Source: a virus. Taken from it: a stretch of DNA of 28,350 nt. Where the stretch lies: positions 1-28,350 of IMG/VR virus record IMGVR_UViG_3300050020_000170; one strand, written 5' to 3'. The translations under genes were made by a program, and so were the position numbers. How positions within the stretch are numbered: the stretch's first letter is position 1; the number at the start of each line of letters is the position of its first letter. The notes beneath the pieces are model-generated. The model was not told the origin of the DNA and made no database searches. It worked only from the letters and a program-made list of their open reading frames with translations. This document shows positions 10,720 to 26,459 of this stretch, in pieces.

Positions 10720-10799
10720 GCCGACGTAAGCAGGATCGCCCTGTAAGCGATTATCTGTAACAGGACTTGAAAATGTTGGTTCGATTCCAACCTTCGGCT
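10720..10799 (+). tRNA. Degenerate tRNA-like element lacking a D-arm
   Basis: Acceptor-like strands GCCGACG (10720-10726) and CTTCGGC (10792-10798) pair at six of seven positions. A perfect T-arm GTTGG-TTCGATT-CCAAC (10775-10791) abuts the 3' acceptor strand. An anticodon-like arm ATCGC-CCTGTAA-GCGAT (10735-10751) has a 7-base loop. Only 8 bases separate acceptor and anticodon arms, so there is no D-arm. Loop position 33 is C instead of U, and 23 bases lie between anticodon and T arms. Read literally the anticodon would be TGT (Thr); a one-base register shift gives GTA (Tyr) but destroys the stem. It is probably a decayed or non-canonical tRNA. Confidence 0.4.
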
Positions 10800-10803
10800 T
10801 TAT

Positions 10804-10885
10804 AAAAATGGGATAGGAATGCATCATGAACATTCCGAGAAGCGTAACTCCCGCTTCCCATTTTTAATTTATGGAGTTTGGAGAA
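10804..10885 (+). promoter_or_regulatory. Pseudoknotted three-way-junction leader, copy 1 (HNH gene)
   Basis: P1 AAAAATGG/CCATTTTT (10804-10811 with 10858-10865) is followed by GATAGG (10812-10817), P2 GGAATG/CATTCC (10816-10821 with 10831-10836) and P3 GAAGCG/CGCTTC (10839-10844 with 10852-10857). The P3 loop TAACTCC (10845-10851) can pair through AACTCC with GGAGTT (10873-10878), one base before the ribosome binding site GGAGAA (10880-10885). The same architecture precedes the genes at 14732 and 25392. Likely role: translational control of the endonuclease. Confidence 0.65.
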
Positions 10886-10895
10886 AATAGTTTTT

Positions 10896-11534
10896 ATGAA
10901 GAATAATGTTTCCGAAGAAGGTCTTAAAAATATTTATGATGCTCAAAAAAGGGGAAGACAAACAGCATTAAGAAATATGGAAGAAAGAATAAGATTATAT
11001 AATGAAAATCCAAAATTGTGTTTGGGTTGTAACAGACCTTTGGCTTATGAAAAAAAGAAAAATGATTTTTGTTGTCACCGATGCTATGGACTTTACAAAT
11101 ATGGCAAAAAGATGATTTATCCAGATGAAACACCTGATAAATATTGTTTGCAATGTGGAAAAGAACTCGTTGGGAGAAATAAAAGATCAAATATTTTTTG
11201 TGATAAAAAATGTGAACGTCTTTATAAAAAACTATTGAAATCAAAAGAAAAAATGATAAGTTTTAATAACGGCGAGCTTAGTGATGAACGAGCAAGAAAT
11301 TTTTTTAGGAAAATTACGGATAAAATATGTTCAATCTGCGGATTGTCCGAATGGAACGGGTTGCCTATACCATTAGTAGTCGATCATATTGATGGGAATT
11401 GTGATAACAATTTTCCTTCAAATTTTAGGTTTGTTTGTTGCAATTGCGACGCTCAATTAGATACATATAAATCTAAAAATAAAGGAAATGGCAGGGCGTA
11501 TAGGCGAAAAAAGAAAGAGATGCTAGTCATTTGA
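10896..11534 (+). CDS. HNH homing endonuclease with zinc-finger N terminus
   Basis: A 212-residue protein. A TTG at 10878 is in frame, but ATG 10896 lies at good distance from GGAGAA and is preferred. Two treble-clef-like cysteine clusters lie in the N-terminal half (CLGCNRPL with CCHRC; YCLQCGKEL with CDKKC). An HNH nuclease domain fills about residues 140-200: CSICGLS, the VVDHIDGNCDNN core with the Asp-His pair and downstream Asn, and CCNCD. HNH enzymes of this kind nick or cut DNA at intronless or element-free alleles and spread by homing. It sits in an intergenic site before the terminase genes and carries leader copy 1. A terminator overlaps its last codons. Confidence 0.8.
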   Translation: MKNNVSEEGLKNIYDAQKRGRQTALRNMEERIRLYNENPKLCLGCNRPLAYEKKKNDFCCHRCYGLYKYGKKMIYPDETPDKYCLQCGKELVGRNKRSNIFCDKKCERLYKKLLKSKEKMISFNNGELSDERARNFFRKITDKICSICGLSEWNGLPIPLVVDHIDGNCDNNFPSNFRFVCCNCDAQLDTYKSKNKGNGRAYRRKKKEMLVI

Positions 11535-12545: not shown

Positions 12546-13067
12546 ATGCCAACAAGAAGAAATTATCAGCAATCTCGCAAAAAAAATGCTCTAAGAGATG
12601 ATCAATTCCAAAAGCCTAGGGAAATACATTCCGCATTACAATTTACTGAAGAACGTAGAAAAAAAATTATAGATTGGGCAACATTCTATAGGAGAAATAT
12701 TCATCGTTTTGTTCAGCATTACTTTGGTATCAAATTGCATTTTTATCAAATAATATGGATTTATTTGATGAGTATAAATGATACATTTGTTGCCATTTGT
12801 AGTCGTGCGGATGGAAAAAGTTGGCTTGTTGCGGTATTTGCTTGTGCAAAAGCGATATTATATCCTAGGTCTGAAATAGTTATTTGTTCTTCAACAAAAG
12901 AACAAGCGGGTATTATTGTTTCCGACAAAATAGCAAGTTTGCGAGAAGAATATCCTAATCTTGCAAGAGAGATTAAAACATTGACAACCAATATGAATCA
13001 ATGGCAGGTTGTTTTTCATAATGGCTCTGTTATTAGAGTTGTAGCCAGTCGAGATAGTGCGCGTGGT
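12546..13067 (+). CDS. terL: Large terminase subunit, exon 1 (ATPase N-terminal part)
   Basis: This exon codes for 174 residues. It includes the adenine-binding and Walker A region: FVAICSRADGKSW at 81-93 is a deviant P-loop as in many phage terminases. ICSSTKEQA at 113-121 and VVASRDSARG at 165-174 follow. The genomic frame continues past 13067 for 20 codons into unrelated residues and a stop at 13130, which is the intron entrance. Joining codon 174 (GGT) to AAA at 13323 gives SARG-KRSTFTIYEEF, the expected link to Walker B. The full spliced protein would have 603 residues, normal for a large terminase. It packages DNA into the prohead at the portal vertex. Confidence 0.85.
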
Positions 13068-13322
13068 AATTCAATTGCCCTTTATGATAGAAATATCATA
13101 TTTGCAGCGGGTAAAGTCGGTGAAAGCTGAAATGCCAATACCGAGCTAATTTTATAGATTGCAAAAGGCTATAAAATAGCGTAACGCATAGACATTGAAT
13201 AAATATAATATGTCCAAGAGTATCCGCCATCTTTTGAAGATGAAAATATATGCTGAACTTATGAGAACACTAATCATAAGAATATAAAGATAAAAAACTT
13301 TATAGATAACAAATTTTTAATG
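13068..13322 (+). ncRNA. Group I intron (subgroup IA-like) in the large terminase gene
   Basis: This 255-nt element has a full set of group I pairings: P1 exon GGT plus AAT with ATTGCC (13065-13070 with 13074-13079), giving the U-G pair at the splice site; P2 TATGAT/ATCATA; P3 GCGGGTA/TATCCGC (13107-13113 with 13221-13227); P4 TCGGT/ACCGA; P6 GCTA..TAGC with an 8-bp extension; P7 GCATA/TATGC (13186-13190 with 13249-13253); P7.1 GACAT/ATGTC; P8 CATCTT/AAGATG; P9 CTTATGA/TCATAAG; P9.1 ATAAAG/CTTTAT. The AATACCGAGC and GTAACGCATAGA strings resemble group I Q and R elements. P7.1 between P7 and P3 marks subgroup IA. The intron would end at G13322. It has no internal endonuclease gene. Confidence 0.85.
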
Positions 13323-14612
13323 AAACGTTCAACGTTCACTATTTACGAAGAATTTCGTTTAATCGACAAACTGGTTTTAGATGCTGTAATTAGACCTTTT
13401 TCATATATTCGCCCTGCCCCATATTTAAAAAATAAAGAATATGAAGAATTTATTGAAGAACCTAAAGAGGTGTTTATTTCTTCGGCATATCATAAGGGAC
13501 TGTGGTGGTATGAAGAAACTAGAAAAGCGGTTATTGATATGCTTGCCGGAAAAAGTTCTGGATTTATAGCTTTTGATACCTCTGTGGCAATCAAACATAA
13601 AATTAAAACTCTAGCAAAGATTAATAGCGAAAAATCAAAGATGGATGAAATTACCGCTATGGAGGAATATGACAATATTCCTTGGGGCGAAAACTCAGAT
13701 GCTTATTTTCGTCTTAGTATGTTTGAAAAGGCAAGAAAGTTAGAAAAGGCAGTATATCCTCAACGGCCTGAAAATTATAATCAAAAAAAGAATCCCTACA
13801 ATATTCCTAGAACCGATGGAGAGATTAGAATACTTTCTTGTGATATTGCTACTATGGGTGGTCGGGTCAACGATCAGTCCGTTACAAGTTTCTTGAGATT
13901 GATACCTACTCGCAAGGGATATAGAAGAGAATTGCTTTACATGGAATCTTTTCTAGGGAAGGGGGCTGTTCCCCAATCTTTAAGAATCAAACGATTATTT
14001 TATGACTTAGATATTGACGTGATCGTTTTGGATGTCCAAAACGCAGGTGGCCCTGTGTATGAAATGCTTGGACTATTAACAAAAGATAATGAGAGAGATA
14101 TTGAATATCCTCCCCTTACCATTATGAGACATCCTAGCATTGATGAAGATACTTATAAGAAATGGTCAGAAAAGACATATGATATCAATGCACTTCCTGT
14201 TATTTATCCTATATCTGCTACTTTGGCATTAAACTCTGAAATAGCTGTTGAAATGAGAGATAAATTACAAAAGAAAATGTTTGAATTTCTTGTTGACGAT
14301 ACTAAAGCAGAAGATTACCAGATTAGAACCAATCCTGAATTTATTAAGGACAATAGCGATTCTGCTTTTAGAGCAGCAATATTGCATCCTCATGTCCAGA
14401 CAAATTTATTTATAAATGAGTGCGTAAATTTGTCATACGATTTTATCAGAGGCAATGTGAAGCTTCAAGAATTAAGCGGAAACAGAAAGGACAGATATTC
14501 TAGTGTAGCGTATGGAAATTACTACGCTTCTTTGTTGGATAAAGATTTAATAAAAAAATATGTTCCTACAGATGATTGGGAAGTATTACAGTCGGTAACA
14601 TTTTTTGGGTAA
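13323..14612 (+). CDS. terL: Large terminase subunit, exon 2 (Walker B and nuclease)
   Basis: This exon codes for 429 residues and starts at AAA after the intron. The ATG at 13320 is intron sequence and has no ribosome binding site. FTIYEEFR provides the Walker B/catalytic-carboxylate motif (residues 179-186 of the spliced protein). VFISSAYHK matches the Ser/Thr-rich coupling motif. The C-terminal RNase H-like nuclease shows ILSCDIATMGG with the first metal-binding Asp, VIVLDVQNAGG with the second, and a late candidate in SDSAFRAAI. The nuclease cuts concatemers during packaging. The gene is followed by an endonuclease with its RNA leader, then the portal. Confidence 0.85.
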   Translation, partial: KRSTFTIYEEFRLIDKLVLDAVIRPFSYIRPAPYLKNKEYEEFIEEPKEVFISSAYHKGLWWYEETRKAVIDMLAGKSSGFIAFDTSVAIKHKIKTLAKINSEKSKMDEITAMEEYDNIPWGENSDAYFRLSMFEKARKLEKAVYPQRPENYNQKKNPYNIPRTDGEIRILSCDIATMGGRVNDQSVTSFLRLIPTRKGYRRELLYMESFLGKGAVPQSLRIKRLFYDLDIDVIVLDVQNAGGPVYEMLGLLTKDNERDIEYPPLTIMRHPSIDEDTYKKWSEKTYDINALPVIYPISATLALNSEIAVEMRDKLQKKMFEFLVDDTKAEDYQIRTNPEFIKDNSDSAFRAAILHPHVQTNLFINECVNLSYDFIRGNVKLQELSGNRKDRYSSVAYGNYYASLLDKDLIKKYVPTDDWEVLQSVTFFG

Positions 14613-14618
14613 AGATTA

Positions 14619-14723
14619 AAATGGATAGGTTATTAAAGGGGTTCGAAACCTTTTAGTGGCTGATAAGTACATACTCCTGAATGTATTTCCATTTGTTTAT
14701 TAATCAGGATTATTTACAGGAGG
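14619..14723 (+). promoter_or_regulatory. Pseudoknotted three-way-junction leader, copy 2 (Vsr-like gene)
   Basis: P1 AAATGGA/TCCATTT (14619-14625 with 14688-14694), GATAGG (14624-14629), P2 GGTT/AACC (14628-14631 with 14647-14650; alternative AAAGG/CCTTT) and P3 AAGTACAT/ATGTATTT (14665-14672 with 14681-14688, one G-T; the last base is shared with P1). P3 loop ACTCCTGA (14673-14680) pairs through TCCTGA with TCAGGA (14704-14709), or through CTCCTG with CAGGAG (14717-14722) inside the ribosome binding site. Two alternative partners make a translational switch plausible. Confidence 0.65.
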
Positions 14724-14731
14724 AATAAAAA

Positions 14732-16276
14732 TTGTCTGCGAAGCTATTATATGAAGATGTTAAAAAATGTGTTGAATCTCACGGTTGCCTTTTGCTAAGT
14801 AAAGAATATATTGATATAAAGACTAAAATACTAGTAAGAGGTATCTGTGGTCATGAATATTTAGTAAACTTTTCTAATTTTAAAAGTCAAGAACAATATG
14901 TTTGCCCCGATTGTGGGAATAAACAACAACATATAGAACACAGATTATCATATGACTATGTTTATAATTATATAAAAGATCATGGCGGTATTCTTTTAAG
15001 TAAAGAATATGTTGGTAATTCACAAAAGCTTGAAATTAAATTTTCTTGTGGTCATATAGATGAGAGAACCTTTGCTAAATTCAAAGAATCTTCCTATATT
15101 TGTGCTAGATGCGCTGGCAAAAAATTATATACTCTTGAAGAAATCAAAGAGATATGTGATAAAAATGGATATATTTTGCATGAAGATATCTATAAAAATT
15201 GCAAAACATATATGAAGTTTTCAGATAATGAAGGATATCTTTATTCGTTGACTTTTGATTTTATCATGAATAATATATTGGATAGAGGTTGTCCTCCTGC
15301 TAAATTCGGAAAAGGGAATCCTTTCACTAAAGAAAACATAATCAATTATTTGCGATTAAATTGCCCAAATTTACATTTAAGTCAAGATGAAGTTTATAAG
15401 AGTGGATTTGATAGAATGAATTTTTATGATAATGAAGGATTCAAATATTACATAGCAATGACACCGTTAATATGCGGCTTAGAAGACGGGTGCTTTCCTA
15501 GATATGTAGATAAATCCAACAAATATTCTATTGAAAATATAGTTCACTGGATAGAAATAAACAATAAACCATTTAAGATGGTTGATGGTCAAGTATATAA
15601 AGGTGCTAGAAGTCCGTTGTATTTTAAATGTGGAAAATGTCCTGTAGAAGAATTGCCCTTCAAGTCAAATTGGGTGAATATTTTTAAAGGAACATTATGT
15701 AATTATTGCAACAACACCTATATAGGGAAATGCAATAATCTTTTATATAGATATCCTGATATATCTCTTGAATGGGATTATGAAAAAAATTATCCTAAAC
15801 GACCAGAAGATATTTCTCCTCATACTAGTGTAAAATATTGGTGGAAATGCGAAGATTGTGGATGTTCCTATTTAATGGCAGGGTCAAAGAAATGTGGAAA
15901 TGAGCCAAGAGGATGCCCTGTCTGTAATGAGTCTAATATGGAGAAAAGAATTCGAAAAACTCTTTCTAAAAATAAAATAAATTTTATTTCTCAAAAGAGA
16001 TTTGATGATTGCAGAGATATTTCATCGTTACCTTTTGATTTCTATTTGCCAGATTATAATTTAGCTTGCGAGGCACAAGGATTGCAACATACAGTAATAG
16101 TTCCTCATTTTGGTGGTGAAGAAGGCTTTATAAAACGACAATATCATGATCAAATTAAACGAGATTATTGTAAAAACAACAATATTCGTTTATTGGAAAT
16201 ATCTTATCTCGATTATAAAAATATAGAAAAAATTCTAGAAGAAGCATTATGCCTCTTCGAAAGAAAGGAGGCTTAG
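14732..16276 (+). CDS. Homing endonuclease: zinc-ribbon repeats plus Vsr-like nuclease
   Basis: A 514-residue protein with TTG start after AGGAGG. The N-terminal ~180 residues contain tandem ~60-residue repeats built on a helix, an LLSKEY-type strand, a CGH motif and a CPDCG or CARCAG pair. Around residues 345-402 lies a zinc-ribbon unit with LEWDYEKN, WWKCEDCG and GCPVC, resembling the probable zinc-ribbon family PF14311. Residues about 403-510 look like the EDxHD (very-short-patch-repair-like) nuclease of I-Bth0305I-type enzymes: Glu in MEKRI, Asp in PFDFYLP, His in QGLQH and Asp in HDQIKRDYC. It lies free-standing between terminase and portal genes. Its stop overlaps the portal GTG by one base and its last codons contain the portal ribosome binding site. 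Confidence 0.8.
   Translation: MSAKLLYEDVKKCVESHGCLLLSKEYIDIKTKILVRGICGHEYLVNFSNFKSQEQYVCPDCGNKQQHIEHRLSYDYVYNYIKDHGGILLSKEYVGNSQKLEIKFSCGHIDERTFAKFKESSYICARCAGKKLYTLEEIKEICDKNGYILHEDIYKNCKTYMKFSDNEGYLYSLTFDFIMNNILDRGCPPAKFGKGNPFTKENIINYLRLNCPNLHLSQDEVYKSGFDRMNFYDNEGFKYYIAMTPLICGLEDGCFPRYVDKSNKYSIENIVHWIEINNKPFKMVDGQVYKGARSPLYFKCGKCPVEELPFKSNWVNIFKGTLCNYCNNTYIGKCNNLLYRYPDISLEWDYEKNYPKRPEDISPHTSVKYWWKCEDCGCSYLMAGSKKCGNEPRGCPVCNESNMEKRIRKTLSKNKINFISQKRFDDCRDISSLPFDFYLPDYNLACEAQGLQHTVIVPHFGGEEGFIKRQYHDQIKRDYCKNNNIRLLEISYLDYKNIEKILEEALCLFERKEA
16251..16272 (+). promoter_or_regulatory. Hairpin sequestering the portal ribosome binding site
   Basis: GCCTCTT (16251-16257) pairs with AGGAGGC (16266-16272), 7 bp with one G-T and an 8-base loop. 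The second arm is the portal Shine-Dalgarno site. The hairpin lies wholly within the endonuclease coding region, so ribosomes translating that gene would open it. Confidence 0.55.
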
Positions 16277-19383: not shown

Positions 19384-19404
19384 TTTAGATTGAGGAGGAA
19401 TATT

Positions 19405-20781
19405 ATGGGAAAAAGAGTTTGGGATATTGAAAAATTAAAAAAATATGTTTCAGACCAGGGCGATGAGCTGGTGTCTGAAGAATATTTTGGATACGGAAAA
19501 CGTCATGAAATTAAATGCCATTTATGTAAAAAAATCTATACAACTTCTCCTAGAAGTTATATAAGAAAAGGAACCAGATGCAAAAAATGTTCTATGAATG
19601 GTTCTTGGAATTTAAAATTCACTATTGACCAAATTAAAGAATATTGTCTGAAATATGATTGTCAACTAATAACCGAATCATATAAATCCGTTAATCAGGA
19701 AATAGAAATACAGTGTAAATGCGGTAGAAAATTTTTAACAACATTTTCTCAATTCAACGGAAGAAAATCAAAACATCAATGTCAAAAATGTTCTAATAAA
19801 GATAAAAACAAAAATTCGGTTATTCCTTTTGATCAAGTTAAAGCATTTATGACTAGTAAAAATTATAAAATTTTGAATTCCAATGATTATGTGAATGGCC
19901 GATCTTTATTAGAAATTGAAGACGAATTGGGTTACAAGCATTGCTTATCGCTTAACTTTTTCAAATCAACTTCGTCAAATAATGGAAGGCCAGAAATTTT
20001 TACAAAGAAAAACAAGTTTGTATTTGAAAACATTCGCCTTTGGATACATTTAACCAACAAGAACTTTGATTTTATAGATGGTGAATTTAGAAGTGATAAA
20101 ATCAGGTCTTTGAATTTTCATTGCCATAAATGTGACAAAGTTTGGAATGCAACCTGGAATTGCATATTGAATGGTATCGGATGCCCATATTGTACGGGGA
20201 AAAGAGTTTCTGAAGATAATTCATTATTTTTCCTTTACCCTGAAATTTGTTTGGATTGGGATTATGATTTAAATAGAAAATCTCCAAAAGAATATACTTA
20301 TGGCTCTGCTAAAAAAGTTCATTGGACGTGTCATAAGTGCAATTACAAATGGATTGCTCCCATAAAGAGGCGTACAGGATTGGGACATGGATGCCCAAAT
20401 TGTGCTCCTGTTTCCAAAGGAGAAGATTTTATTTATGAATATCTTTTGGGATTAGGATATGAAGAAAATGAAATTAAACGATGGCATAGATTTCAAGATT
20501 GTAGAAATAACAAGCCATTATCTTTTGATTTCTATATGCCTTCAATTCCTTGTTGCATAGAATTTCAAGGATTGCAACACACAAAGCCAATAGAATATTT
20601 TGGCGGATTAAAAATGTTTAACACACAGGTTATTAATGACAAAATCAAGAGAGAATATTGTTTATCCAACAAAATACAATTTATAGAAATATTTTTCAAT
20701 GATGATATTAAAAATATTTTAGAGAAAGAATTATCTCCTTTCTCGGAAAGGAGGATTATTGACAAATCAAATTTCGAGTAA
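19405..20781 (+). CDS. Homing endonuclease: zinc-ribbon repeats plus Vsr-like nuclease (second copy)
   Basis: A 458-residue protein. ATG 19405 follows GAGGAGG by 6 bases; the in-frame TTG upstream overlaps that site and is rejected. The architecture matches the endonuclease at 14732: two cysteine-rich ~60-residue repeats (CHLCKK..CKKC and CKCGRK..CQKC), a third degenerate repeat, two further zinc-ribbon units (CHKCDK..CPYC and CHKCNYK..CPNC with DWDYDLN before them), and a C-terminal EDxHD-type nuclease with Glu in GEDFI, Asp in SFDFYMP, His in QGLQH and Asp in NDKIKREYC. Unlike the other three endonucleases it has no pseudoknot leader. It overlaps the protease gene by 23 bases and contains that gene's ribosome binding site. 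Confidence 0.8.
   Translation: MGKRVWDIEKLKKYVSDQGDELVSEEYFGYGKRHEIKCHLCKKIYTTSPRSYIRKGTRCKKCSMNGSWNLKFTIDQIKEYCLKYDCQLITESYKSVNQEIEIQCKCGRKFLTTFSQFNGRKSKHQCQKCSNKDKNKNSVIPFDQVKAFMTSKNYKILNSNDYVNGRSLLEIEDELGYKHCLSLNFFKSTSSNNGRPEIFTKKNKFVFENIRLWIHLTNKNFDFIDGEFRSDKIRSLNFHCHKCDKVWNATWNCILNGIGCPYCTGKRVSEDNSLFFLYPEICLDWDYDLNRKSPKEYTYGSAKKVHWTCHKCNYKWIAPIKRRTGLGHGCPNCAPVSKGEDFIYEYLLGLGYEENEIKRWHRFQDCRNNKPLSFDFYMPSIPCCIEFQGLQHTKPIEYFGGLKMFNTQVINDKIKREYCLSNKIQFIEIFFNDDIKNILEKELSPFSERRIIDKSNFE
20735..20753 (+). promoter_or_regulatory. Hairpin sequestering the protease ribosome binding site
   Basis: CTCCTTTC (20735-20742) and GAAAGGAG (20746-20753) form a perfect 8-bp stem with a 3-base loop (TCG) that covers the Shine-Dalgarno site of the TTG-started gene at 20759. 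It lies inside the endonuclease gene, so translation of that gene would unfold it. Confidence 0.6.
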
Positions 20782-24542: not shown

Positions 24543-25235
24543 ATGAAAAAAACTTCAAATTCTCAATCTACACCAGATGAGAAAATCAATGATAATACTA
24601 CTGATTTTGAGCAACTAAAGCAAATGTTTTTAGCACAACAAAATACTATTACTGATTTGAAAAATCAAGTTGAGGTATTATCAAAGCCAAAGACGGTACG
24701 TTCTTCTAAGTCTTCAGGAGAATACAGGGATATTCGTCCTGATGATTATGTTAAGATTATGTCTTTGAATAACAAACCTATGAACATATCTAGTGAGCCT
24801 AGATTTCAGGGGAAGGCATTGAGTTTCACTTATTTTGGCGAAACTAAGAAAGTCTTATATTCTGAGTTTTTGGATATAAAGGAAAATCATAAAAATTTCT
24901 TTGAACAAGGATTATTCTATCTTCTAGATGAAGGCAGAGGGATTATCAAAGAATTAGGATATGAAGAACTTTATGAACATATTCTTACAAAAGAAAAAAT
25001 TGAAGCCATTTTAAATAGCAATCCTGATGCGTTCAATTTCTTTCAATCTGCTAATAAAAAACAACAGGAACTTATTATTAATATGTTGTTTATAAAAATG
25101 CGGGACGGGCAGAACGTTGATCGTAATTTGATTGCAAATATTTCTAGACATAGCGGAATAGATATTGAGGCCAAAGTTAAAAAGGCTTTGGAAGATATTG
25201 AATATGAAGAAGGATTGAAAAATCTTAAAAAGTAA
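24543..25235 (+). CDS. Conserved-looking phage protein of unknown function
   Basis: A 230-residue protein; ATG after AAAGGAAAA. Residues 1-20 are polar and probably disordered, and about 20-48 form a coiled coil. A central domain (residues ~60-160) includes RPDDYVKIMSLNNKPMNIS, LSFTYFGETKKVLYSEFLD and GLFYLLDEG. The C terminus is helical and charged. I recall proteins with this SLxxxxxNIS...FG...YSEF pattern next to capsid genes in Firmicutes phages, suggesting a virion or assembly protein. The exact role is unknown. The gene ends before a strong promoter with a flanking inverted repeat. Confidence 0.6.
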   Translation: MKKTSNSQSTPDEKINDNTTDFEQLKQMFLAQQNTITDLKNQVEVLSKPKTVRSSKSSGEYRDIRPDDYVKIMSLNNKPMNISSEPRFQGKALSFTYFGETKKVLYSEFLDIKENHKNFFEQGLFYLLDEGRGIIKELGYEELYEHILTKEKIEAILNSNPDAFNFFQSANKKQQELIINMLFIKMRDGQNVDRNLIANISRHSGIDIEAKVKKALEDIEYEEGLKNLKK

Positions 25236-25241
25236 AAAATA

Positions 25242-25281
25242 AATATTGCCCCTTGACAAATTGGCAATATTATGTTATAAT
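25242..25281 (+). promoter_or_regulatory. Consensus promoter overlapping an inverted repeat
   Basis: TTGACA (25253-25258), 17-base spacer and TATAAT (25276-25281), a perfect sigma-A consensus. A 9-bp inverted repeat AATATTGCC/GGCAATATT (25242-25250 with 25263-25271) surrounds the -35 box. It could be an operator or, as RNA, a terminator for the upstream gene. Transcription would start near 25288, exactly where the structured leader of the next endonuclease begins. Confidence 0.75.
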
Positions 25282-25288
25282 AAAAGAT

Positions 25289-25388
25289 TAGAGGGATAGG
25301 GATTATCTGATCCATAATTTCAATAAGAATATCTACTCCCAAATATTCTTCCCTCTATATTAATAAAAATTGGGAGTATTATAGGGAG
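25289..25388 (+). promoter_or_regulatory. Pseudoknotted three-way-junction leader, copy 3 (HNH-type gene)
   Basis: P1 TAGAGGG/CCCTCTA (25289-25295 with 25351-25357), GATAGG (25295-25300), P2 GGAT/ATCC (25300-25303 with 25310-25313) and P3 AAGAATAT/ATATTCTT (25325-25332 with 25343-25350). The P3 loop CTACTCCCAA (25333-25342) pairs through ACTCCCAA with TTGGGAGT (25370-25377), five bases before ribosome site AGGGAG (25383-25388). TCCCT (25350-25354) could instead pair with AGGGA of that site, giving an alternative state. The element starts at the predicted transcript 5' end. Confidence 0.7.
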
Positions 25389-25391
25389 AAT

Positions 25392-26459
25392 ATGAGTGAA
25401 AAATTTGTAGGGCGACCTCCTGCATCTTTGGAAGAAGCAGAAAGGATTTTATTCAAAGTTCATGGAGATTCAATAATTTTATTAGAATATAATGGAATGA
25501 ATTATCCGGGTAAATTTGAATGTAAGATATGCGGGCATAAATGGGAAGTTAAAAGAGCGGATAGAGTTATAAAAACAACCAATTGCCCGAATTGTGCAAA
25601 AATGAAAGATAAATATACTTTAGAATATGTAAAAGAGTATATAGAATCTCAGGGATGCAAATTACTTTCTGATATATATGTAAACGCTAAAACAATGATG
25701 ACTATTCAGTTTGAATGTGGACATATTAATCAAGGAAATTGGAATGAATTTCAACAAGGGAAAAGATGTATTCTTTGCGGCGTAAAAGCGCGAAGCAATG
25801 CTCATAGGACAAAAGAAAAAGATATTATAAAATTTTTAGAAGATAATGGGTTTGAGTTTATTGATTTTCCAACAGGATTTAAAACCCAAAAAACATCTTC
25901 CGTTAGGTATAAATGCAAATATGGTCATATTACCACAAGAGAAGTGGATCGCATTTATGTATATACTACGTGTAAAACATGCGAATTTGCAGATTTAGCA
26001 ATTTTAAAAAAGGGCGAACAAAACACTAATTGGAAGGGCGGAACGTCCGAACTTAGATGGTTTGCTCAAAACCAAATAAGATTTTGGAAATTAAAATCTG
26101 CTAAAAATTGTAATTATAAATGTGTAATTAGCGGAGAAACATTTGATGATATTCATCATTTGTATTCTTTTAATTTGATAATGGATGATGCCATAAGGAA
26201 TTTGAACCTTCCGGTTTATGATAAGATGGAAAAATATACAGTGGAAGAATATACTGCTTTTGCTAATGAAATAATAAGACTGCATAATATTCACCCATTG
26301 GGGGTTTGTTTGACAGAATCATTACATATGCTTTTTCATTCTTTATATGGATACGGATATAACACCCCCGATCAATGGAGTGATTTTGTTTATAGAATAA
26401 ATGTCGGAGAAATCGACATAAGAAAGGAGGCATTATTTGACAGTAACTACATTACCTGA
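25392..26459 (+). CDS. Homing endonuclease: zinc-ribbon repeats plus HNH-like nuclease
   Basis: A 355-residue protein; ATG after AGGGAG. Three ~60-residue cysteine repeats occupy residues 1-200 (CKICGHKW with CPNCAK; CGHINQ with CILCG; a KYGHIT with CKTCEF). They are clearly related to those of the Vsr-like endonucleases at 14732 and 19405. The C-terminal half has instead an HNH-type core: KGGTSELRWFAQNQI, CVISGETFDDIHHLYSFN with the His pair, and GVCLTESLHMLFHSLYGYG with downstream His residues. It would cut phage DNA at a homing site near the neck genes. It is driven by its own consensus promoter and structured leader, and overlaps the next gene by 23 bases. Confidence 0.8.
   Translation: MSEKFVGRPPASLEEAERILFKVHGDSIILLEYNGMNYPGKFECKICGHKWEVKRADRVIKTTNCPNCAKMKDKYTLEYVKEYIESQGCKLLSDIYVNAKTMMTIQFECGHINQGNWNEFQQGKRCILCGVKARSNAHRTKEKDIIKFLEDNGFEFIDFPTGFKTQKTSSVRYKCKYGHITTREVDRIYVYTTCKTCEFADLAILKKGEQNTNWKGGTSELRWFAQNQIRFWKLKSAKNCNYKCVISGETFDDIHHLYSFNLIMDDAIRNLNLPVYDKMEKYTVEEYTAFANEIIRLHNIHPLGVCLTESLHMLFHSLYGYGYNTPDQWSDFVYRINVGEIDIRKEALFDSNYIT

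Follow-up and report, generated by a model that had tools for sequence, protein, structure and literature searches.

Structured leaders of phage homing endonuclease genes as a probable divergent branch of the int-alpA RNA superfamily and candidate translation switches

Three of the four endonuclease genes in a 28,350-nt stretch of viral DNA (positions 1 to 28,350, one strand, of IMG/VR record IMGVR_UViG_3300050020_000170; hereafter the window) are preceded by a leader of shared RNA architecture. From its sequence relationships, we judge it probable (about 0.6) that these leaders are a divergent branch, here type I, of the superfamily of int-alpA RNA (RF02996; type II), and that they act in cis as bistable translation switches with a decoy Shine-Dalgarno (SD) sequence. 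All three have the layout P1-ATA-P2-GAN-P3-P1', with pairing between the P3 loop (L3) and a downstream strand. The P1-P2 junction (J12) is ATA, P2 opens with a G-U or G-C pair, P3 opens with two A-U pairs, J23 is GAN in the leaders but AAT in copy 3, and in the three window copies P1' directly follows P3 (J31 of 0 nt). The features are as follows.

10720..10799, + strand: tRNA-like sequence before copy 1 (28.2 bits against an Rfam cut-off of 29; not called by ARAGORN)
10804..10865, + strand: copy 1 (W1) leader core, from the descriptor scan; 42.0 bits with model R2, expected for a training copy
10804-10812/10857-10865, + strand: copy 1 P1; J12 ATA at 10813-10815
10816-10821/10831-10836, + strand: copy 1 P2; loop CATCATGAA, palindrome TCATGA
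10837-10839, + strand: copy 1 J23 GAG; P3 at 10840-10844/10852-10856, L3 TAACTCC at 10845-10851
10873..10878, + strand: copy 1 pseudoknot strand GGAGTT, partner of L3 AACTCC
10880..10883, + strand: copy 1 SD GGAG, also complementary to L3 (CTCC)
10896..11534, + strand: HNH homing endonuclease gene after copy 1 (212 aa from ATG 10896; phrog_10822, 6.6e-21)
14619..14694, + strand: copy 2 (W2) leader core, from the descriptor scan; 28.8 bits with R2, expected for a training copy
14619-14624/14689-14694, + strand: copy 2 P1; J12 ATA at 14625-14627
14628-14639/14649-14661, + strand: copy 2 P2; loop GGTTCGAAA, palindrome TTCGAA
14662-14664, + strand: copy 2 J23 GAT; P3 at 14665-14672/14681-14688, L3 ACTCCTGA at 14673-14680
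14704..14709, + strand: copy 2 pseudoknot strand TCAGGA, partner of L3 TCCTGA
14717..14723, + strand: copy 2 SD CAGGAGG (CAGGAG with L3 CTCCTG, 6 bp)
14732..16276, + strand: endonuclease gene after copy 2 (514 aa, TTG start; treble-clef repeats and an EDxHD/Vsr-like end; phrog_559, 7e-60; phrog_9084 homing endonuclease, 1.9e-30)
25253..25281, + strand: copy 3 promoter, sigma-70-type, perfect TTGACA-17-TATAAT; transcript start at about the first base of P1
25289..25357, + strand: copy 3 (W3) leader core, from the descriptor scan; 35.2 bits with R2, expected for a training copy
25289-25295/25351-25357, + strand: copy 3 P1; J12 ATA at 25296-25298
25299-25306/25314-25321, + strand: copy 3 P2; loop CTGATCC
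25322-25324, + strand: copy 3 J23 AAT; P3 at 25325-25332/25343-25350, L3 CTACTCCCAA at 25333-25342
25370..25378, + strand: copy 3 pseudoknot strand TTGGGAGTA, 9 bp with L3
25384..25388, + strand: copy 3 SD GGGAG, 5 bp with L3 CTCCC
25392..26459, + strand: endonuclease gene after copy 3 (355 aa, treble-clef repeats, HNH-family profiles)

Each structure lies where an earlier note, made from the sequence alone, had placed it. A descriptor scan (P1, ATAGG, P3 abutting P1', and a P3 loop pairing downstream) scored copies 1, 2, and 3 at 51, 46, and 57, with other window matches at 43 or below and the best of 40 dinucleotide-shuffled windows at 47. Copies 1 and 3 thus score above all shuffles; the case for copy 2, which equals the top chance scores, rests on the comparative evidence. 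Matches of the covariance model in the window fall at exactly the three leader places, and none lies upstream of the fourth endonuclease gene (19390), in agreement with the count of three leaders among four genes in the earlier note. That gene (19390-20781, treble-clef/EDxHD) sits closely behind a small open reading frame (ORF), and translation coupling may replace the leader there. The order of P1, P2, and P3 and the abutment of P3 on P1' stand as first described; the proposed GATAGG with P2 opening in GG is refined to J12 ATA and a G-U or G-C opening pair, and ACTCC is not a fixed P3-loop motif, as L3 varies in sequence and covaries with its partner strand.

Over 50 additional copies came to light elsewhere among viral contigs, many by the kind of covariance-model search proposed earlier. 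The starting set was relatives of the window endonucleases in IMG/VR, and the first to show the same leader before the gene were L002, L003, and L017 (two copies). R2, built on seven copies trimmed to equal-length skeletons that include 'N' fillers, found untrained copies before GIY-YIG genes at G003:20741 and G001:31484, as well as matches at the start of many endonuclease loci. A second model (R3, 25 copies) added about 30 copies, and a 123-kb phage record (G054) has six convincing ones; both models are detection tools rather than published-grade alignments, the parsing of a few copies was adjusted by hand, and the viral contigs come without a reliable host. Leader-bearing endonuclease loci are a minority (about 12/80, 7/80, and 5/39 in three locus sets). 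Single-protein scans gave no relatives of the third endonuclease or of the terminase, and a convincing type I copy is absent from eight named phages whose terminases or endonucleases are related (Thomasclavelia TR-TP1, Mammaliicoccus phi6255, Bacillus Goe14, Lysinibacillus LC76P1, Geobacillus E3, SBSphiJ1, cr116_1, and MT835469). Weak R3 matches of about 15 to 23 bits (L135, L101, L163, L164, L270, L298, L299, and L304-L308) sat before unrelated genes or none and were set aside as chance, since they had no partner strand or fell within coding sequence. One phage record, L278, carries two copies close together (226-277 and 1869-1924), the second with an L3 complementary to both a downstream strand and the SD and with the P2 palindrome TAGCTA.

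The helices covary well beyond the window. In alignments that were both fitted to the structure or model, 92.3% of helix cells are paired in the 25 training copies (shuffled, 67.1) with 112 double-changed cells (shuffled, 37.7), and 96.0% are paired in 24 copies outside the training set (shuffled, 67.7) with 117 double changes (shuffled, 35.0), a covariation score of 0.825 (shuffled, 0.269), and slid controls at 59% paired or less. The covariation that the earlier note had seen among three copies therefore extends to copies outside the training set, and the motif is confirmed, by sequence comparison, as real and far from chance. The pseudoknot is absent from the model, so that covariation between L3 and the downstream strand is independent evidence. 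This pairing scores 14.7 for own partners versus 11.4 (sd 0.28) for permuted partners in type I (N=57), and 13.1 versus 8.1 (sd 0.29) in type II (N=69), in permutation tests that, like those for the SD below, control only partly for descent. The proximal (pseudoknot) strand lies a median of 10 nt 3' of P1', and the start codon a median of 26 nt 3' of that strand; the distance from P1' to the start codon is 19 to 85 nt in the type I member copies listed, and 16 to 70 nt (median, 35) in type II.

L3 is complementary to two strands of the same mRNA, the pseudoknot strand and the true SD region. For the latter, own pairs score 13.7 versus 11.1 (sd 0.30) for permuted pairs in a strict set of 43 copies in which the two strands are separate, the top of 5,000 permutations being 12.5; after collapse to distinct L3 loops the values are 13.8 versus 11.1 (sd 0.33), and in type II 13.0 versus 9.8 (sd 0.26). 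The SD flank changes along with L3, as in L281 (L3 GCCTCGTAA, strands TTACGAG and TTTACGAGG) and L327 (L3 TCTCATCAC, strands GTGATGA and TGATGAGAGG), and L152, with L3 CCTCAC, has GTGAGG twice. Predicted duplex energies for L3 with the pseudoknot strand and with the SD are -6.5 and -7.0 kcal/mol in type I and -6.3 and -6.6 kcal/mol in type II, and the predicted nested minimum-energy fold of copy 2 places L3 on the SD. We note that this pairing is just 4 bp in copy 1, L031, and L171, and that the pseudoknot strand and SD region resemble each other, so that duplication between them could account for part of the L3-SD complementarity. The leaders thus combine a set position 5' of the start codon with an anti-SD element that covaries with the SD, features of a leader controlling translation in cis.

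The sequence does not fix which state represses, as both pairings share L3 and leave P3 intact. In the switch reading that we favor, L3 on the proximal strand (the decoy SD) would form the pseudoknot and free the real SD (ON), and L3 on the real SD would block initiation (OFF). With so small an energy difference between the two pairings, even a weak input could tip the balance; candidates are the order of folding during transcription, dimerization by way of the palindromic P2 loop when transcripts are abundant, or binding of a ligand or protein to the conserved junction. The earlier proposal of a pseudoknot beside the ribosome site that controls it holds as to the covarying pseudoknot, but overlooks the equal complementarity of L3 to the SD. 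Compact leader RNAs such as preQ1-II and SAM-II govern ribosome access through a pseudoknot and an anti-SD element, and by analogy the pseudoknot near the SD could be the OFF state that keeps the 30S subunit off, with the L3-SD resemblance incidental. This agrees with the earlier picture, with known pseudoknot riboswitches, and with the many copies in which the pseudoknot strand is 13 to 22 nt from the start codon, close to the SD; we consider it unlikely, as it leaves the L3-SD covariation unexplained and the strand is 39 to 64 nt from the start codon in several copies (L080, L160, and L275). The leaders also differ from preQ1-II and SAM-II in having no Rfam match, no metabolic theme among downstream genes, and no known ligand.

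The P2 loops share a further property, in that 34 of 52 distinct apices contain a 6-nt palindrome (shuffled, 7.4, sd 2.5), as do 21 of 38 after related loops are collapsed (shuffled, 5.6, sd 2.1), and none of 52 L3 loops does. Ten different palindromes occur (TCATGA, TTCGAA, TAATTA, TTGCAA, TGATCA, TGTACA, TAGCTA, ATCGAT, GTCGAC, and ATTAAT), so the apical loop stays self-complementary through sequence changes, as in kissing loops; adjoining AT-rich stretches are also palindromic in 14 to 15 of 57 cases, and the background is therefore partly compositional. This pattern suggests that P2 loops may form kissing-loop dimers. A more elaborate and doubtful proposal is that the whole superfamily, int-alpA and endonuclease branch together, forms a three-strand switch (anti-SD loop, decoy SD, and real SD) whose state would be set by mRNA homodimerization through P2, such that the RNA would sense its own transcript level. 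Mimicry of a tRNA T-loop (TTCGAAA) by the P2 loop was considered and dropped, as the remaining palindromes do not fit.

The link to int-alpA RNA, for which the facts rest on Rfam's record, came from copies whose P2 hairpin is short (GGGTCGCTCCC) and whose junctions are CTAG/GAAAAG. When this form was sought by pattern across all viral contigs, with no selection for endonucleases, at least 120 loci matched; P1 is also formed in 60 of the 80 listed, and 10 of 11 tested exceed the RF02996 gathering cut-off of 35.8 bits (the exception is L319). Several leaders of endonuclease-like genes pass RF02996 too (L132, 48.4 bits; L078, 38.8; L002 and L027, 38.0), and R3 conversely finds type II copies (L367 at 38 bits, L351, L319, L363, and L323). 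The window copies have no RF02996 match, and most of type I behaves likewise; an Rfam search of the window copies at gathering and relaxed thresholds (E up to 10) returned no match. As intermediates pass and window copies do not, we place all in one superfamily with a recognized type II (int-alpA) and an unrecognized type I. The motif is therefore 'unrecognised', as the earlier note called it, in that the window copies score under no Rfam model, but its family is linked to int-alpA.

Both types share the order P1-(C)TAG-P2-(C)GAAAAG-P3-P1' of int-alpA, in which a 3' strand (consensus AgGG) is complementary to L3 (consensus CCuU), and type I has its three-way junction, short or absent J31, and loop-3/downstream complement. 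The junctions differ, with CUAG and CGAAAAG in int-alpA, (A/C)TAGG and GAAAAG in type II copies here, and ATAG and GAN-AAG in type I; type I thus has J12 ATA rather than CTA, J23 GAN, no CCTG before P1', and a longer, more variable P2. The name int-alpA implies a place between integrase and alpA-type genes, whereas the window copies precede endonucleases. Rfam files the class as 'Gene; sRNA', whereas the placement seen here and the complementarity to the SD favor a leader acting in cis. Besides that filing, a trans-acting small RNA would suit one good copy, L303 (1501-1566; G072:14329), which has its own promoter and, downstream, an intrinsic terminator ahead of an amidase-like gene, with no endonuclease nearby; nearly all other copies are tightly placed before start codons and complementary to the SD, which makes a trans role highly improbable. 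L303 may be what remains after loss of an endonuclease gene, or it may be an RNA that stands alone.

Type II occurs in Enterobacter, Salmonella, Klebsiella, Edwardsiella, Vibrio, and Pseudomonas phages and in E. coli prophages, one of which has it before a DUF551 gene. The proteins encoded downstream of type II number 59 and include 8 of DUF1376 (primosomal-type), as many as about 14 with an HNH or GIY-YIG domain, and 2 integrases. The superfamily RNA is not endonuclease-specific, to judge by these contexts, since int-alpA members are also located upstream of primosomal, integrase, DUF551, and other phage genes. We note that DUF1376/primosomal-type replication genes recur behind int-alpA-type leaders (L327, L330, L333, L352, and others), and that a phrog_5329 gene follows such a leader in L092 (4070-4122) and, as a look-alike protein, in L367 (32-84); window ORF 24543-25235 is of the same family and has no such leader.

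In type I, nearly every copy lies directly 5' of a homing-endonuclease-like gene (L281 and L161 are ambiguous). The different nuclease folds noticed earlier, HNH and Vsr-like, widen to GIY-YIG, HNH, EDxHD/Vsr-like, and other classes, and the leader is enriched upstream of these varied endonuclease genes. Outside the window, 53 proteins encoded behind a leader were scanned with profiles, which gave GIY-YIG and NUMOD3 (13 each), DUF4379 treble-clef (19), and phrog_559 and phrog_9084 endonucleases (25 and 21), plus HNH and HNH_repeat proteins. As these loci were selected through endonucleases, a second count used matches above 28 bits elsewhere in the same records, of which about 25 of 28 precede nuclease-like genes, with a few assignments by N-terminal similarity only. 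Among type I copies as a whole, the genes that depart from the endonuclease pattern encode a primase (L277), a DEAD-type helicase (L074), a T5orf172 protein (L278), and a phrog_5329 protein (L092), and L303 departs from it as well.

The leader is, on sequence evidence, part of the insertion and not of the host operon. Copy 2 starts 6 bases 3' of the terminase stop, and its endonuclease gene, inserted between the terminase and portal genes, runs into the latter; in relatives lacking the endonuclease (Thomasclavelia TR-TP1, Mammaliicoccus phi6255, Bacillus Goe14, and Lysinibacillus LC76P1) the gap from terminase to next gene is 13 to 18 bases, the next gene in the last two being annotated as hypothetical only. 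The terminase large-subunit gene is itself interrupted at 13058-13276 by a probable small, ORF-less group I intron (Rfam Intron_gpI, 46.2 bits, E 7.8e-11, slightly below the cut-off of 50); its halves are ORFs 12546-13130 and 13320-14612, and relatives such as Thomasclavelia TR-TP1 have one continuous terminase. The earlier suggestion that the RNA travels with the endonuclease, or is selected for its role, thus stands in that leader and gene form one module, but not as a specific tie, given the int-alpA relatives before other genes.

The tRNA-like sequence before copy 1 and a tRNA in L031 (1306-1376) both end 4 bases upstream of the leader, and by eye the HNH module of L017 also abuts a tRNA or tRNA-like gene upstream of 1396, so that tRNA 3' processing could set the leader 5' end at P1. 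Promoters (10/12 match or better) lie just upstream of 12 of 57 copies (shuffled, 3.1, sd 1.9), and in most of these the -10 box ends 2 to 7 nt 5' of P1, such that P1 can start the mRNA. Such 5' ends would suit a stabilizer that blocks 5'-to-3' RNase J, and flavivirus xrRNA, which halts bacterial RNase J1, has a similar helix-level layout, with a three-way junction and an L3 paired with a downstream strand (the L3-S4 pseudoknot) (PMC5760640). This likeness is an analogy of layout only, as there is no sequence relation, no xrRNA family in Rfam matches, and the leaders lie 5' of start codons in DNA phages and place L3 on the SD as well. A stabilizer seems quite improbable, since it leaves the L3-SD covariation unexplained and type II is present in phages of Enterobacteria and Vibrio, hosts that are not known to have RNase J. 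Modules directly behind an upstream gene or tRNA could also profit from a self-cleaving ribozyme that frees the endonuclease mRNA from upstream transcripts; this is hardly credible, given that cleavage would bring no benefit where a copy has its promoter at P1, that no Rfam ribozyme matches, and that only about six unpaired bases (ATA and GA) are conserved, fewer than known ribozymes have.

Control of phage endonuclease genes by SD sequestration has precedent in T4 I-TevI, I-TevII, I-TevIII, segB, and mobE, where RNA structure restricts translation of homing endonucleases (PMC2988022). The T4 hairpins are simple and are relieved by a late promoter downstream of the hairpin 5' arm; unlike type I leaders, they have no three-way junction, pseudoknot, decoy strand, or cross-family spread. 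In the bistable-switch reading, a potentially harmful homing endonuclease would be kept low and timed, and the module of leader and gene would bring its own control to each insertion site.

Catalogues assign no function to the int-alpA class, which in the literature searched is mentioned by one paper only, as a list entry; it here gains a testable, putative job as a cis translation switch with a concrete three-strand mechanism. To it is added a sizable and divergent set of leaders associated with homing endonucleases that have several unrelated folds, and the palindromes of the P2 loop prompt the testable idea of an mRNA gated by dimerization. If the switch reading is true, a control that is portable and self-limiting travels with selfish endonuclease genes, and ordinary phage replication genes use the same device.
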